Positions 36,404 to 41,738 of a stretch of 47,492 nt of DNA are shown here, in pieces. The notes under the pieces are model-generated. The model made no database searches. It was not told the DNA's origin and saw nothing but the letters and a program-made list of their open reading frames with translations. Position 1 is the stretch's first letter; each line of letters begins with the position of its first letter. Source of the stretch: Deltaproteobacteria bacterium (lineage in GTDB: Bacteria; Desulfobacterota; Desulfuromonadia; Desulfuromonadales; Geopsychrobacteraceae); the NCBI GenBank assembly GCA_024280485.1, contig JAJRQB010000098.1, forward strand, positions 1 through 47,492, written 5' to 3'. Made by a program: the position numbers and the translations under genes.

Positions 36404-36671
36404 CGACTACTCCTAAAGAAACTAACAGCTCAAAAATATCAGGCGGAGTCTAGCAGAAAGCAAGTGGGTTGACAAACACTGGTATATTGTCATTTACAAG
36501 AGCAATTCAGAAGCGACATAATGGAACTTATCTACCTGTAATTACTGATTATCAACCCGACATCTGGCGACATTTCGACCGATGTCTAATGATTTGTTCT
36601 TCAGCCTATGTCAATCTCACTCCAAACAGATTCGGAGCCTGCATCACCTAACTTAACTGAGGAGAATTGAA

Positions 36672-37001
36672 ATGAAAAAATTTATTACCTTGTTCGTTGC
36701 CATTGCCATGGTCTCTATCGCTGCGATGGCTGTCATCGCCGATGACAAAGGTCCCGCCGAAATCAAACTCCCCGCCTCAATGGGCGAGATCACCTTCAAC
36801 CACGCAGCACACCAGGGTCGGGTTGCTGATTGCAAGACATGTCACCATCAGGGTGAGGGAACCGCCTGCCGCAGTTGCCATGGCATTAAGTCTGATGCGC
36901 CAAAAGCTAAAAAGGCCTTCCATGCCACATGCAAGGGCTGTCACAAAGAGCAAAACGGACCGACCAAGTGTAAGCAATGCCATACTGGCCCTAAAGGCTG
37001 A
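36672..37001 (+). CDS. Small periplasmic tetraheme cytochrome c
   Basis: A 109-residue exported protein: a signal peptide of about 22 residues (ending VIA) and a mature chain near 87. There are four CxxCH sites: 54-58 (CKTCH), 66-70 (CRSCH), 87-91 (CKGCH) and 100-104 (CKQCH). Four further His (H44, H47, H59, H84) can be the sixth ligands, so bis-His hemes are expected. The N-terminal part EIKLPASMGEITFNHAAHQ and the end KCKQCHTGPKG resemble the c7/PpcA family, which normally has three hemes; here the CRSCH site is extra. The likely job is periplasmic electron transfer. The start ATG follows GAGGAG. A strong terminator follows. Confidence 0.9.
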   Translation: MKKFITLFVAIAMVSIAAMAVIADDKGPAEIKLPASMGEITFNHAAHQGRVADCKTCHHQGEGTACRSCHGIKSDAPKAKKAFHATCKGCHKEQNGPTKCKQCHTGPKG

Positions 37002-37025
37002 ATGAAAAACCTGCAGCTTCGAGAC

Positions 37026-37061
37026 AAAAAAGGGGGTGCCTGAAACAGGCACCCCCTTTTT
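37026..37061 (+). terminator. Terminator after tetraheme cytochrome gene
   Basis: The perfect 11-bp stem GGGGGTGCCTG/CAGGCACCCCC on an AAA loop is bordered by A-runs and T-runs on both sides, so it can stop transcription from either strand. It lies between the cytochrome and the convergent kinase gene. Confidence 0.93.
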
Positions 37062-37082
37062 AATACATACGTTTCTATATAT

Positions 37083-38921
37083 TTAACGGACCAGAGGAAG
37101 TCGAATTTCCAAACGGGTCCCCTGCCCCTTACGGCTGAATATATCAATCTTCCCCCCATGTGCGTCTACTATATACTTGGTGATACTCAACCCCAAACCT
37201 GTGCCACGTACCGCAGTATTCGAAGCATCTGCACGATAAAAACGCTCAAAGGCATTTTCTTTCTCTTCTTCAGTCATCCCTATACCCTGATCAAGGATAT
37301 CTATTCGAATCCAGTTTTCATCCTGGCTAAGTACAACTTTTATATCACCACCATCTGGCGAATACTTGATTGCATTACCTAGCAAGTTATCTATTACTTG
37401 AATCAAGCGCATTTCGTCTGCATCAACGAATACATCTTCAATAGCAAATTCAGAAACGAAATTATGTAGGCTATTTGTTTTTTCAAAATCTGCTATCAAT
37501 TTACGACAAAGAGAGACAACATTGACATGGGTAAAATTCAGTTGCAGCCCCCTACCATCCTCTATTCTGGAGAGATCAAGAATGTCGTCAATCAACCCTG
37601 AGAGCTCAATGGATTTATCGTTGATGATATGCAGAAATTCACTTGTCTGCTCAGGTTCAAACTGTCTTGAAATATCCAGCAACAGTTCACTATAACCAAG
37701 AATCATCGTTAAAGGTGTTTGCAACTCATGGGCCGCCATTGAAACAAACTCGCTCTTCATCTGATCGATCTGGCGTTCACGTGTAACATTATGGATCAAT
37801 AAAATCAGACCGCGTCCATGTACTGAGGTATCACGTAATCTGGAAGCACGCCCCTGATAGACATTCCTTATTTCTTCTCGAGACATTATAAAATCAAAAT
37901 CAACAGATTCTGCAGTACCAAGTTCAGTTCTGGCTTTTGCAATTTCAAGCAGTAATTCGTCATAGCCGATAACATCAGGCAGGCGACGACCAAGGACCTT
38001 AGTAGCCTTGACACCAAAAAGAGTCTCAGCAGCAGGATTGAAAAGTAAAATATTATCCTGATGATCAGTCACCAGAAGCGCGTCTGAAACTGAAGAGATA
38101 ATGGCATCTATTCGATCACGTGCTTCCAAAGATGCCACAAAAGCTAATTTTTGAGCCTGCTGTGCTTTCTTTCTTTCATGAATCTCAGCGGCCAAAAGTT
38201 GATTTGAGGCAGAAAGATCCAAGGTTCGTTGTTCTACGCGATTCTCAAGATCATCGTTCGCCTCTTGCAGGGCAAGCTCAGCATGATCACGTGCAACAAT
38301 GTTGTTATGGGCACGGAACAACACCAACAGTGTCATCAACAAAAGACCTGTGGATGCCATGAGAAGTATAAAAAATGATTGGAGAGAGAGAGAATTAAGG
38401 TTTTCCTGACCGGAAGTCATATCATAATAGACTTCCATTGCACCAAGAAATTTACCATCGACCATCACAGGGACATAAGTCTCGACTAGATCTATATCTG
38501 TAGAGGTACCTTCAGCAGTCACAGATTCCTTGCGCACCATCTTTGAATAACGCTTACCTTTGGCAACGATATTCCTGAAGTAGTCTTTTTTATTGATCGT
38601 ACCAATTTCCTGAGAATCTGTAGAAAACACAATTTTGCCCAGAGGTGAAAAAACCCTCAATTTTATGAGAGTTTTCTCTTCCTTAAGCTTGAAGATATCC
38701 CTGCTAAATGACTTTGGGAGATTGTCCGCTTGCAGTTCTAATTCGTTCAAAGAATTAGTGATGGTCAAGAAACGTACGAAGCGCTCCGCATCTCGTTCAG
38801 TTTCCCGAACCAATAAATCCTGGTATGAGGGTACGATAAAGCAAAGATCATAGATTGGGAGTACGGTCGCAAAAATAAAAGCAACGATTAAGATATTTCG
38901 TAGAAAGGGAATTTTCAGCAT
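37083..38921 (-). CDS. PAS sensor histidine kinase with periplasmic sensor
   Basis: A 612-residue kinase. The first helix (about 6-25) and periplasmic sensor domain (about 28-180, single-Cache type) are followed by a second helix (about 187-207), a coiled coil (DDLENRVEQRTLDLSASNQ), a PAS domain (about 270-370), HisKA with H-box MAAHELQTPLTMILGYSELL, and HATPase with NLLGNAIKYSPDGG, DQGIGM and [13 protein letters not shown]. No HAMP is visible. It has no partner regulator in the window. The start ATG 38921 is seven bases after AGGGA; an upstream TTG at 38948 is rejected. Divergent from it lies a small RNA gene. Confidence 0.9.
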   Translation of the reverse strand: MLKIPFLRNILIVAFIFATVLPIYDLCFIVPSYQDLLVRETERDAERFVRFLTITNSLNELELQADNLPKSFSRDIFKLKEEKTLIKLRVFSPLGKIVFSTDSQEIGTINKKDYFRNIVAKGKRYSKMVRKESVTAEGTSTDIDLVETYVPVMVDGKFLGAMEVYYDMTSGQENLNSLSLQSFFILLMASTGLLLMTLLVLFRAHNNIVARDHAELALQEANDDLENRVEQRTLDLSASNQLLAAEIHERKKAQQAQKLAFVASLEARDRIDAIISSVSDALLVTDHQDNILLFNPAAETLFGVKATKVLGRRLPDVIGYDELLLEIAKARTELGTAESVDFDFIMSREEIRNVYQGRASRLRDTSVHGRGLILLIHNVTRERQIDQMKSEFVSMAAHELQTPLTMILGYSELLLDISRQFEPEQTSEFLHIINDKSIELSGLIDDILDLSRIEDGRGLQLNFTHVNVVSLCRKLIADFEKTNSLHNFVSEFAIEDVFVDADEMRLIQVIDNLLGNAIKYSPDGGDIKVVLSQDENWIRIDILDQGIGMTEEEKENAFERFYRADASNTAVRGTGLGLSITKYIVDAHGGKIDIFSRKGQGTRLEIRLPLVR

Positions 38922-39050
38922 TTTGATCCCTGTGGGAGGAGTGGACAAGACTAAGACTACCTAATTATTTGAAGCTTTGCCACTCTGAGGCATAACTAAA
39001 GAATAATGTCTAAATTTAAATGATTATTTTTAAAAAATTCAAATCTCAAC

Positions 39051-39078
39051 TTGACGTAAGAAGTTAGCCGTCTATAAT
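39051..39078 (+). promoter_or_regulatory. Strong sigma70 promoter for small RNA
   Basis: TTGACG (39051-39056) and a perfect TATAAT (39073-39078) with a 16-base spacer. The expected start point is near 39085. No open reading frame follows; a structured RNA with its own terminator does. Confidence 0.8.
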
Positions 39079-39084
39079 AAAAAC

Positions 39085-39163
39085 AAGGCCGAATGAACGC
39101 TCGACGGAGCAACGGCCAACACTTTTACCCCGCGTTCTCCCTCCTGACGCGGGGTATTTTTTT
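39085..39163 (+). ncRNA. Candidate small RNA with C-rich loop
   Basis: About 79 bases between a strong promoter and a Rho-independent terminator. Hairpin 1 is GGCCG (39087-39091) with CGGCC (39113-39117), and inside it GCTC-GACG-GAGC (39099-39110). After the single-stranded AACACTTTTA comes hairpin 2, CCCCGCG (39128-39134) with CGCGGGG (39148-39154), then TATTTTTTT. The loop of hairpin 2 reads TTCTCCCTCCTGA; its CTCCCTCCT part is complementary to AGGAGG-type ribosome sites. C-rich loops of this kind are used by known regulatory RNAs to block translation. There is no coding frame and no match to a riboswitch I know. Confidence 0.75.
39128..39163 (+). terminator. Terminator of the small RNA
   Basis: The 7-bp GC-rich stem CCCCGCG/CGCGGGG with a 13-base loop is followed by TATTTTTTT. 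It is at once the 3' end and the C-rich loop of the small RNA. Confidence 0.9.
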
Positions 39164-39249
39164 GGAGAATATTTTGATTCTACAATCGTCGAATCTAAAT
39201 ATTCTGCTGATCAGCATAAGTGACATGAAATTTTATCTTTTTACTGATC

Positions 39250-40899
39250 TCAATTTTTGAAGACTTTCAATAGATGAGGAACCAGTTGCTTTTTACGCGA
39301 CAAAACCCCACGGGCGAGATATAGGTTCGTTTCTTGTTGCGGATAACCGAGTAACAAGGGGAGTTCTTTAGGACCTGCAGTCAGCAACAAACTCGTCCCT
39401 TCGACAATATCTGTCACCAGCAATGCCGCAAGAAGATAGCCTTTCTCTTTACGCAAGCAGGCCAACTCTTCTTCTAGTTCTATTTTGCGACTATGAAATG
39501 CATGAAAACTGACAACTTCAACCTGCCCCAGACCTAAAACCTGCCCAGAAACTTCATATTCTTTAAAATCAGTCGTAAGAAGTTGTCGTGCCCCTATCTC
39601 CACAGCCATAGGGCTATTGGAAGAAAAGATCAGGGCTCCAAATGCATCGGCATCAAGATCGACTAATTTCGCCAGCCAAGAACAGATCTCACAATCAATT
39701 GAAGTGGTGGTCGGAGATTTCAAAATAACGGTATCAGACAAAAGCCCCGACAACAGCAGGCCTGCAACCAAAGGAGTGGGTTCGATACCTGCCTGTCGAT
39801 AAAGAGTTGCAATAAGAGTACAAGTACTTCCCAAAGGTTGGTTGATAAAACGGATCGGCCGATCAGTTTGAAAGTTACCCAAGCGGTGATGATCGATCAC
39901 TTCGACAATTTCAACTGTATCTGCACCGGGAATGGCCTGGCTCAGTTCATTATGATCGACTAGAATCAATTTAATCGGTGAATTTTTGAGCAAATGACTT
40001 TTGCTTGCGATTCCGATAATTTGGCCATCTTCGTCGACAACAATAGCTCCGACAGCATCCTGATGCAGCAATTTCAGTCGAAGATCAGAGAGCAATTCCG
40101 AACGACCAACTTGTAAGAAATCTTTACCGATTAAGGCTGAGACAGGTGTTGCCAGACGAGTCAACCAACAGCAATTTGCAGTATCAAATGGGCTAGAGAT
40201 AAGGGAGACTTGAGCGATACGAGCACTTTCAATCAGTTCTTCTGCAAGCGGTGCACCTCCTGACAGAATGAGCATCCGCACCCCGGCAGCAATCGCAGCA
40301 GCAATGATTTCAGGACGATGGCCAGTAATCAGGACACTTTGCCGGGGTTCTATACCTTTAAGCCAGGCACTGAATGAGTGTGAGTCACGCGCGCCGACAT
40401 AAAGATTTAGATCTTCGAGGTTATCGGCCTGATAGAGGGTCCCAACTTGCGCTTGCAGGCAACTAGCAACAGACCGGGAGTTAACACGGACACGTCGCAT
40501 TTCACCAGCTTCAGTTGGCAGTAAAAACAGCTCTGTGATCTCTTTCAACAGTAGTAATCCATGTGGCTTTTTCAGGCTATCAACAACTGGTAACATCCTT
40601 ATTTTATGACGATGATATAACTCAAGGGCAGCGGACAAGGGCTCATTCAGACTGATCATCACCGGCTCATCGGTGATGACATCTCCAACACGCGGGTAGA
40701 CGTCGGACAGATGCCTGGGGGAAGGTTGACCGAAATGCTCCAACACAAATTCGGTCTGTTGGTTTAGATTTCCTGCGCAAGCCGGGAAAACATTTTTTTC
40801 TCCCTGGATACGCAAAAGCTCCGCATAAGCGATGGCGCTACAGATCGAATCTGTATCTGGGTTGCGATGACCGATGACATAAGTCGTTGATTTATTCAT
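39250..40899 (-). CDS. Family II inorganic pyrophosphatase with CBS-DRTGG insert
   Basis: A 549-residue Mn-dependent pyrophosphatase of the DHH family. The DHH core has GHRNPDTDSICSAIAYA at the start, LVDHNELSQA, EVIDHHRLG and SGLLSDTVILKSPTTTS. Inserted are two CBS domains (about 70-130 and 250-310) around a DRTGG domain (about 150-245). In studied enzymes of this type adenine nucleotides bind the CBS pair and regulate activity. It hydrolyses PPi from biosynthesis. The start ATG 40899 overlaps the stop of the DUF3108 gene (ATGA). Confidence 0.9.
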   Translation of the reverse strand: MNKSTTYVIGHRNPDTDSICSAIAYAELLRIQGEKNVFPACAGNLNQQTEFVLEHFGQPSPRHLSDVYPRVGDVITDEPVMISLNEPLSAALELYHRHKIRMLPVVDSLKKPHGLLLLKEITELFLLPTEAGEMRRVRVNSRSVASCLQAQVGTLYQADNLEDLNLYVGARDSHSFSAWLKGIEPRQSVLITGHRPEIIAAAIAAGVRMLILSGGAPLAEELIESARIAQVSLISSPFDTANCCWLTRLATPVSALIGKDFLQVGRSELLSDLRLKLLHQDAVGAIVVDEDGQIIGIASKSHLLKNSPIKLILVDHNELSQAIPGADTVEIVEVIDHHRLGNFQTDRPIRFINQPLGSTCTLIATLYRQAGIEPTPLVAGLLLSGLLSDTVILKSPTTTSIDCEICSWLAKLVDLDADAFGALIFSSNSPMAVEIGARQLLTTDFKEYEVSGQVLGLGQVEVVSFHAFHSRKIELEEELACLRKEKGYLLAALLVTDIVEGTSLLLTAGPKELPLLLGYPQQETNLYLARGVLSRKKQLVPHLLKVFKN

Positions 40900-41738
40900 G
40901 GTGTATTTCTGGGGACTCGACGAGGTTCTGTGACATGGACTAGTTCCCCGTGCACATCACCTAATCCGATAACATTTTTTATCACAGCAAGTTTGGGGCG
41001 CAACTGGCTATCAAACCCGACGTAAACATCCCGCCCCTTGGTTTTAAAAGTATCAGGTGACATTAAAACTTTACATAACAAAAGACCCATCGGAAATTTC
41101 AATCGTTGCTGTTCTTCTTCAACAAGTCTGCTAATAATAATTTCCTCTGGTCCCTTTCTTGAGAAAGCAGACAGCTTGATATCATGCCCTGGCTCGACCG
41201 CACCCAGTCGGCCAAGGCGTAGATTATAAAAAGCCGTCAAGAAATCATAGGTCGGCTTATCATTGACCATCGGCAACATATACTTATGTTGAGCAATTCC
41301 ATTTATCGTTTTACTGTAACCAACTTGATTGGTGTCATAATCATATGTATAGCTGGTCAAACGATGGGTTGTCTTCTTGCCTTTACCCTTTTTTGTATCA
41401 GAGACCTGCAACAGTGGACGCAGTAGCCCTGCGGGGCCTTCTTCCATCAGGGTCGTAAAGGTCTCTACTCGGTTGCGCGTAAAAAAAGCAGCCATCCCAC
41501 GCGTTTTTGCAGTAAGAGTCGCTAGATATGTGCCTTTTTTTTCACCTGTTTCAAAGCTGATCTCCGCCAAAGCTATTTTTTTAAACCACAGAAAAGAGAC
41601 TTTGTAGGTTAATTTTTCTCCCAAGAGTGAATTCGCAGACGCTTTAGTTAAGCTATCTGCAGCGAAAGCTTCAACAAAAGGCGTAGGAAGTAAGATGAGG
41701 GGAAGCAGCAGGCTGACAAGTAGAATTCGTGTTTTCAT
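40896..41738 (-). CDS. DUF3108 exported protein
   Basis: A 280-residue protein with a signal peptide (about 1-27, ending AFAA) and a beta-rich domain. The segments LLGEKLTYKVSFLWFKKIALAEISF, DKPTYDFLTAFYNLR and the C-terminal FDSQLRPKLAVIKNVIGLGDVHGEL match DUF3108, a family of periplasmic or outer-envelope proteins of unknown role. It is translationally coupled to the pyrophosphatase gene and lies 13 bases after the Ca/Na exchanger gene, so the three form one minus-strand run. Confidence 0.8.
   Translation of the reverse strand: MKTRILLVSLLLPLILLPTPFVEAFAADSLTKASANSLLGEKLTYKVSFLWFKKIALAEISFETGEKKGTYLATLTAKTRGMAAFFTRNRVETFTTLMEEGPAGLLRPLLQVSDTKKGKGKKTTHRLTSYTYDYDTNQVGYSKTINGIAQHKYMLPMVNDKPTYDFLTAFYNLRLGRLGAVEPGHDIKLSAFSRKGPEEIIISRLVEEEQQRLKFPMGLLLCKVLMSPDTFKTKGRDVYVGFDSQLRPKLAVIKNVIGLGDVHGELVHVTEPRRVPRNTP

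Follow-up and report, generated by a model that had tools for sequence, protein, structure and literature searches.

Within the 47,492-nt stretch of DNA analysed here (the window), we find a locus that very probably encodes a regulatory RNA of ~78 bases kept across one family related to Geopsychrobacter. Comparison of sequences supports well its designation as a small RNA (sRNA) gene whose terminator carries an anti-Shine-Dalgarno loop, CCUCCU being the core of the anti-Shine-Dalgarno sequence of 16S rRNA. The reading we favor, at a probability of roughly 0.62, is that of a stand-alone trans-acting sRNA of ~78 nt, perhaps Hfq-assisted, whose terminator loop pairs with Shine-Dalgarno sequences. 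A compact and conserved RNA with such a defined seed would make post-transcriptional control in these bacteria directly accessible. The features of the locus are collected in Table 1.

Table 1. Features of the sRNA locus and its neighbors, in window coordinates.
Feature	Position	Strand	Basis and remarks
Sigma-70 type promoter TTGACG-16-TATAAT	39051..39078	+	Sequence inspection (TTGACG 39051-39056, 16-nt spacer, TATAAT 39073-39078); 16-nt spacer and at least 10/12 matches in 24/24 intact homologues
Small RNA, ~78 nt	39085..39163	+	Predicted fold, covariance model; start inferred 7 nt past the -10 box
5' hairpin GGCCG...GCUC(GACG)GAGC...CGGCC	39087..39117	+	Predicted fold and genus alignment
Single-stranded linker 5' of the terminator	39118..39125	+	Unpaired probability 0.99-1.0
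Intrinsic terminator, 11-bp stem and T-run	39126..39163	+	Sequence, fold, conservation; arms 39126-39136 and 39146-39156, T-run 39157-39163
Anti-Shine-Dalgarno terminator loop CUCCCUCCU (also given as CTCCCTCCT), proposed pairing site	39137..39145	+	(Near-)invariant in homologues; CCUCCU common to other RNAs
PAS histidine kinase, divergent neighbor	37083..38948	-	Context only
Manganese-dependent inorganic diphosphatase ppaC (DHH-DHHA2 with CBS and DRTGG), convergent neighbor	39250..40899	-	Context, outside the RNA

A sequence-only reading of this DNA had described a near-ideal promoter followed by an RNA with two hairpins, a linker and a terminator, and here the sequence, the predicted fold and the conserved 16-nt spacing all agree with it. 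The RNA folds at -32.5 kcal/mol (z -4.5), a stability reached by 0 of 200 shuffled sequences. That reading also held that the stretch contains no reading frame, which does not stand, as a 55-residue ATG frame (39093-39260) crosses the RNA and its terminator; this ATG is not conserved among the aligned genus copies, and on these two grounds we rejected a small protein as the product of the locus. Taken alone the promoter is weak evidence, because promoters with at least 11 of 12 matches occur three times in the whole window against a mean of 0.71 expected from 100 first-order Markov versions of it, and because generic scans of positions 36500-41500 gave chance-level numbers of both promoters (8 versus 9.3) and terminators (6 versus 4.7). 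The decisive support for the predicted RNA gene comes from its conservation, and not from the promoter by itself.

The RNA is present as a single copy in its own 4.1-Mb draft genome according to a DNA search. Across 60 genomes, a DNA search returned matches at E<1e-3 in 28 of the 37 family genomes (own genome included) and in none of the 23 genomes of the order outside the family; the matches in G014 and G021 resemble another RNA. A covariance model, R1, was built from 24 aligned copies (alignment A3), with many of the searched genomes having supplied its sequences. The window RNA gets 71.5 bits from R1, which detects relatives throughout the family, in 32 of 44 genomes at E<=8.3e-7 and in 39 of 44 at E<=0.1, the latter count covering all 26 good-quality genomes and including decayed copies and other RNAs. 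No R1 match was obtained in five of the 44. Outside the family, 22 of 92 genomes of the order gave matches at E<=0.001 (best 4.7e-7), and these may be sister RNAs. Both A3 and the promoter census leave out two decayed copies (L025, L028), two loci closer to a second RNA (L027, L029) and two from other families of the order (L030-L031). In all 24 intact aligned copies the promoter spacing is exactly 16 nt, with 10-12 of 12 positions matched.

How conservation is distributed along the locus was profiled over six genus copies (one of them decayed, L028 omitted) and 13 of the 19 intact copies found outside the genus. Column identity in the genus and in the other genera, respectively, was 1.0 and 0.98 in the loop, 0.88 and 0.97 in the 5' arm of the terminator stem, 0.92 and 0.98 in its 3' arm, 0.81 and 0.85 in the U-tail, 0.77 and 0.64 in the 5' part of the RNA, and 0.77 and 0.80 in the promoter. 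The 20 bases directly upstream of the promoter gave 0.85 and 0.65, with the farther flanks at 0.64 and 0.57 upstream and 0.51 in both sets downstream. Standard pairs occupy 99.6% of the stem cells over 23 distinct sequences (ten pairs counted), with changes on both sides in two of the ten pairs and a covariation score of 0.166 versus 0.134 (sd 0.008) for shuffles; with so little variation in the 3' arm, this covariation is modest. Decayed copies are found in two genus members, G001 and G004 (L025 around 1501-1599, L028 around 1501-1534); in them promoter (8/12) and stem are degraded and the loop, CTCCCTCCTGAC, is intact. Such joint loss of promoter and stem is what would be expected of a decaying RNA gene. 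An essential role is argued against by these two copies together with the five family genomes that gave no match.

In the predicted folds of the window RNA and of all seven homologues folded, the loop is free except for its closing pair; in the former, bases 2-9 have an unpaired probability of 1.0 and base 1 of 0.26. We read the loop as a Shine-Dalgarno seed because it copies the anti-Shine-Dalgarno core, is free in the fold, and ranks with the best-conserved segments here. The RNA would be made from its own sigma-70 promoter, end at the intrinsic terminator and present a loop resembling the anti-Shine-Dalgarno core of 16S rRNA to the Shine-Dalgarno region of a subset of AGGAGG(GA)-type mRNAs, with Hfq at the U-tail possibly helping the pairing, and the paired mRNAs would be kept free of the 30S subunit and thus translationally repressed. 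An hfq gene is found in 41 of the 44 family genomes (C92 in the window's own genome, 82.8 bits), and a stand-alone promoter and an intrinsic terminator with a U-tail, as for Hfq-dependent sRNAs, are present as features of the sequence. C-rich loops, terminator loops included, are shown or proposed to bind mRNAs in the cases of LhrC, RepG and rhizobial RNAs, according to excerpts of the respective reports (PMC4132741, PMC8295292, PMC3927594).

The loop had been matched by the sequence-only reading to AGGAGG ribosome sites said to be used by many genes of the window; its conservation and predicted single-strandedness bear out the anti-Shine-Dalgarno assignment, but the window has fewer AGGAGG sites than stated, such a site lying upstream of only one of 35 open reading frames, with AGGAG or GGAGG upstream of 11 (frames of at least 120 residues, chosen greedily, any of the first 12 possible starts considered). 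The broad regulator then proposed is thus a possibility at most. The motif CAGGAGGGA-N(1-10)-ATG occurs at 43 places in nine genus genomes versus four for the reversed control, in a position where Shine-Dalgarno sites are expected anyway. One such site lies before ihfA in seven of the nine, the window's own copy of the gene being identified by NF001401 and the others by a near-identical 92-residue sequence. We name no target, because the ihfA site is also present in G004, where the RNA has decayed, and because the scan does not discriminate.

The same genomes contain further RNAs that have CCUCCU terminator loops but appear unrelated; they emerged as weaker R1 matches and from a search with the model of the atoC RNA described below; this recurrence lay beyond what a reading of the window's sequence alone could see. 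In the second of these RNAs the UUGUUGUGGCAGGC core hardly changes, most copies have a TTGACA-type promoter, and the terminator loop is CCCCUCCU-like; compensatory changes occur in 12 of 21 predicted pairs over 22 sequences (alignment A4, which leaves out L027, L029 and L116 of 25 candidates). It was located at L100-L114 and L120-L139, and in the window's own genome at L119 (around 1480-1609); its GUGGCAG is reminiscent of the first hairpin in the atoC RNAs of this family. A further RNA places GUCCAA...UUGGAC ahead of a GCCUCCUC-like loop. The window's own genome contains, besides the window RNA, an atoC-like member (C145), the UUGUUGUGGCAGGC RNA (C166, L119) and a GGCGCGCC-stem RNA (C168, L117), together with two more terminators that have loops of this kind and are located behind genes or between them (C65 and C91). 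Many of the sister RNAs carry a second CU-rich stretch (AACCUCUC, ACCUCCC) upstream of the terminator, and their different 5' parts and loci lead us to infer that they are unrelated by descent. At L195 (around 1436-1545) an ACCUCCU-loop terminator stands 65 nt past a stop codon with GGUCUCUCUCCCACG ahead of it, possibly a 3' UTR-derived RNA of the same design. Separately, four genomes of another family of the order (f12; G128, G114, G132, G184) have several terminator-like CCTCCT-(G/T)ACTGTGGGG-T run sites each; these sites, alike in other members of the order, suggest a multicopy RNA of the same type.

Simple pattern counts gave no excess of such terminators. The pattern CCTCCT-N(5-16)-TTTTTT occurred 754 times in the 44 family genomes versus 805 for the reversed pattern, and exceeded it in 18 of the 44; judged by eye, there was no clear excess of the terminator pattern in 194 genomes of the class, nor were GCCCC..CCTCCT..GGGGC hairpins commoner than the reversed control in 297 genomes of the phylum (0 versus 0 in the window's own). 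The own genome has 34 matches to the former pattern versus 21 reversed, overlapping matches included. These counts demand no full stem and are therefore a weak test of excess. Of 29 distinct own-genome sites 26 were examined (C18 and C35 fell outside the filter, and C153 was also left out), with a perfect-stem terminator found by script in four and an interrupted stem seen by eye in C145 and C168. As background, the window and the stretches of L140-L182 contain 14 perfect-stem terminator-like hairpins, too few to mean much, with CCTCC inside the loop only in the window RNA; at L145, in a stretch chosen for CAGGAGGGA, the motif straddles a hairpin loop. Given the absence of an excess, the class rests on homology-based families and not on statistics over all terminators.

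On this evidence these genomes appear to contain several unrelated small RNAs with the same loop, the window RNA among them, and a loop of this kind would be what these otherwise dissimilar RNAs have in common. More tentatively, at somewhat less than even odds, Desulfuromonadales might share a code in which several unrelated sRNAs per genome have converged on, or exchanged, the CCUCCU terminator loop, the set comprising the window RNA, the atoC RNA, the UUGUUGUGGCAGGC RNA, the GGCGCGCC-stem RNA and perhaps 3' UTR-derived ones, often with a second CU-rich stretch upstream. If so, many sRNAs, each with a promoter of its own, would act on one set of AGGAGG-type messages. Anti-Shine-Dalgarno terminator loops seem to turn up repeatedly in RNAs that are otherwise dissimilar, much like the C-rich loops of Listeria and Alphaproteobacteria.

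Recurrence of the same loop core in several RNAs would also be compatible with a protein recognition element (e.g. for a KH, cold-shock or ProQ-like protein), in which case a real RNA would use its C-rich loop and 3' arm to titrate protein. This fits the fact that loop and 3' arm are kept as sequence beyond what base pairing within the stem needs, a feature of the 3' arm that pairing by the loop alone leaves unexplained. We nonetheless judge it unlikely, since the common core is exactly CCUCCU, that of the anti-Shine-Dalgarno sequence, and since C-rich terminator loops with demonstrated mRNA pairing are known, as far as excerpts of the relevant papers go (PMC4132741, PMC8295292).

The genomic neighborhood bears on another explanation. 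Of 26 loci considered with flanks of up to 1.5 kb, 17 have ppaC next to the RNA and 23 have one or more of ppaC, a cytochrome, the kinase and a DUF3108 gene there. The divergent sensor kinase pointed out in the sequence-only reading is real at the window locus but is not general, being found at eight loci (seven genus members and G013), with ppaC the more constant neighbor. From these counts the RNA is tied to its neighborhood, but not to the kinase. As the window RNA faces the 3' end of ppaC and no same-strand gene follows directly, it is not a leader there. The convergent arrangement, with only 86 nt from the RNA end to the ppaC stop codon, and the constancy of this neighbor could point to a cis-acting regulator of ppaC, working through a readthrough mRNA perfectly complementary to the RNA or through transcription collision. 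We consider this improbable: ppaC was not found at nine of the 26 loci (some flanks ending at contig ends), a DUF3108 gene replaces it at L005, L006 and L020, and the invariance of the anti-Shine-Dalgarno loop would go unexplained.

Improbable too, and marginally less credible than regulation of ppaC, is a mere promoter-terminator pair or strong terminator with no regulatory role, its loop kept by descent. The chance-level scans nearby and the lack of excess in the pattern counts would suit such an element, but not a loop identity of 0.98 against 0.51 downstream in the 13 other-genus copies, nor a loop core common to other RNAs.

The 5' part differs between genera, so that of the conservation in relatives that the sequence-only reading had set as a test, that of loop and terminator stem is borne out and that of the 5' hairpin is confined to the window's genus. 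Among the 24 copies in A3 the hairpin occurs only in the five from this genus, where GCUCGACGGAGC is invariant in all five intact copies and the outer stem varies from CCG/CGG to CUG/CAG. The 19 other-genus copies lack it and mostly have a CU-rich stretch (ACUCUCUCUC) in its place, with little predicted structure in the three folded. Terminator and loop are hence the only part common to all copies, and this suggests that the loop is the working end. A sponge for G-rich stretches of other sRNAs, or a CsrA-binding RNA acting via ACGGA in the 5' hairpin, is very improbable; the one GGA of this hairpin is invariant in the five intact genus copies, but it stands alone, and none of the 19 aligned copies from outside the genus has the hairpin.

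The Shine-Dalgarno-pairing sRNA that we favor has parallels elsewhere. The rhizobial RNAs RFMSmelA075/A099 and RS0680a of Alphaproteobacteria have relatives known as CcsR or cuckoo RNAs. Excerpts of their description report hairpin loops of CCUCCUCCC that are read as anti-Shine-Dalgarno, variable stems, and several copies per genome (PMC3927594). These RNAs are described as having several such loops each (PMC3927594), and membership among them would call for at least two CCUCCUCCC-loop hairpins; the window RNA has one such loop, in its terminator, and its 5' hairpin loop is GACG. LhrC of Listeria is described, in the portion of the report consulted, as having stem-loops with a single-stranded stretch between them and a terminator loop with UCCC that binds a region upstream of the start codon (PMC4132741). 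The likeness is one of description, LhrC having three UCCC sites and five copies and the window RNA one C-rich site and one copy (PMC4132741); the terminator loop is the sole C-rich part of the window RNA, with most other-genus relatives adding a CU-rich 5' stretch. In RepG of Helicobacter pylori a C/U-rich terminator loop is likewise the mRNA-binding site, but the target given in the excerpt is a homopolymeric G-repeat and not a Shine-Dalgarno core (PMC8295292). Geobacter sRNAs are covered by a G. soli study, whose accessible part gives the genome positions of 30 sRNA candidates with differential expression (PMC6013743), and by a CsrA study that, in the part seen, names predicted CsrB-like RNAs of Geobacter (PMC11934962). 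A partial look at the open-access literature (titles and abstract starts) returned none on RNAs of such design in the group.

The description of the RNA as unannotated was upheld by an Rfam scan of the window, in which no family reached its gathering score. Identity with the atoC RNA (RF01733) was rejected at 17.5 bits against a gathering score of 50 (E 1.3), as were anti-hemB, ncS54 and the other listed Rfam families, all far below threshold. Judging from these comparisons, the window RNA adds a member to a known working type and lies outside every known RNA family tested. Its likeness to the atoC RNA, a candidate small RNA of the same order with a 5' hairpin and the terminator loop CCCUCCU, extends to a weak covariance alignment that sets the two terminator loops in register, but the atoC RNA has its own 5' hairpin and a terminator stem unlike that of the window RNA. 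The atoC motif, filed as cis-regulatory in Rfam, may itself stand alone as an sRNA of this working type. A separate and better atoC candidate, itself below threshold, lies elsewhere in the own genome (C145, 25.7 bits), and the atoC model applied to 60 relatives found atoC-like RNAs at other loci, passing the curated score in two of the 60 genomes. At these loci (L032-L061, e.g. L039 and L040), 26 of 30 with the loop motif, the next open reading frame of at least 100 residues, by crude calls, converges on the RNA in 21 cases and shares its strand in five. A minor observation is that the 5' end of the atoC model resembles a -10 box.
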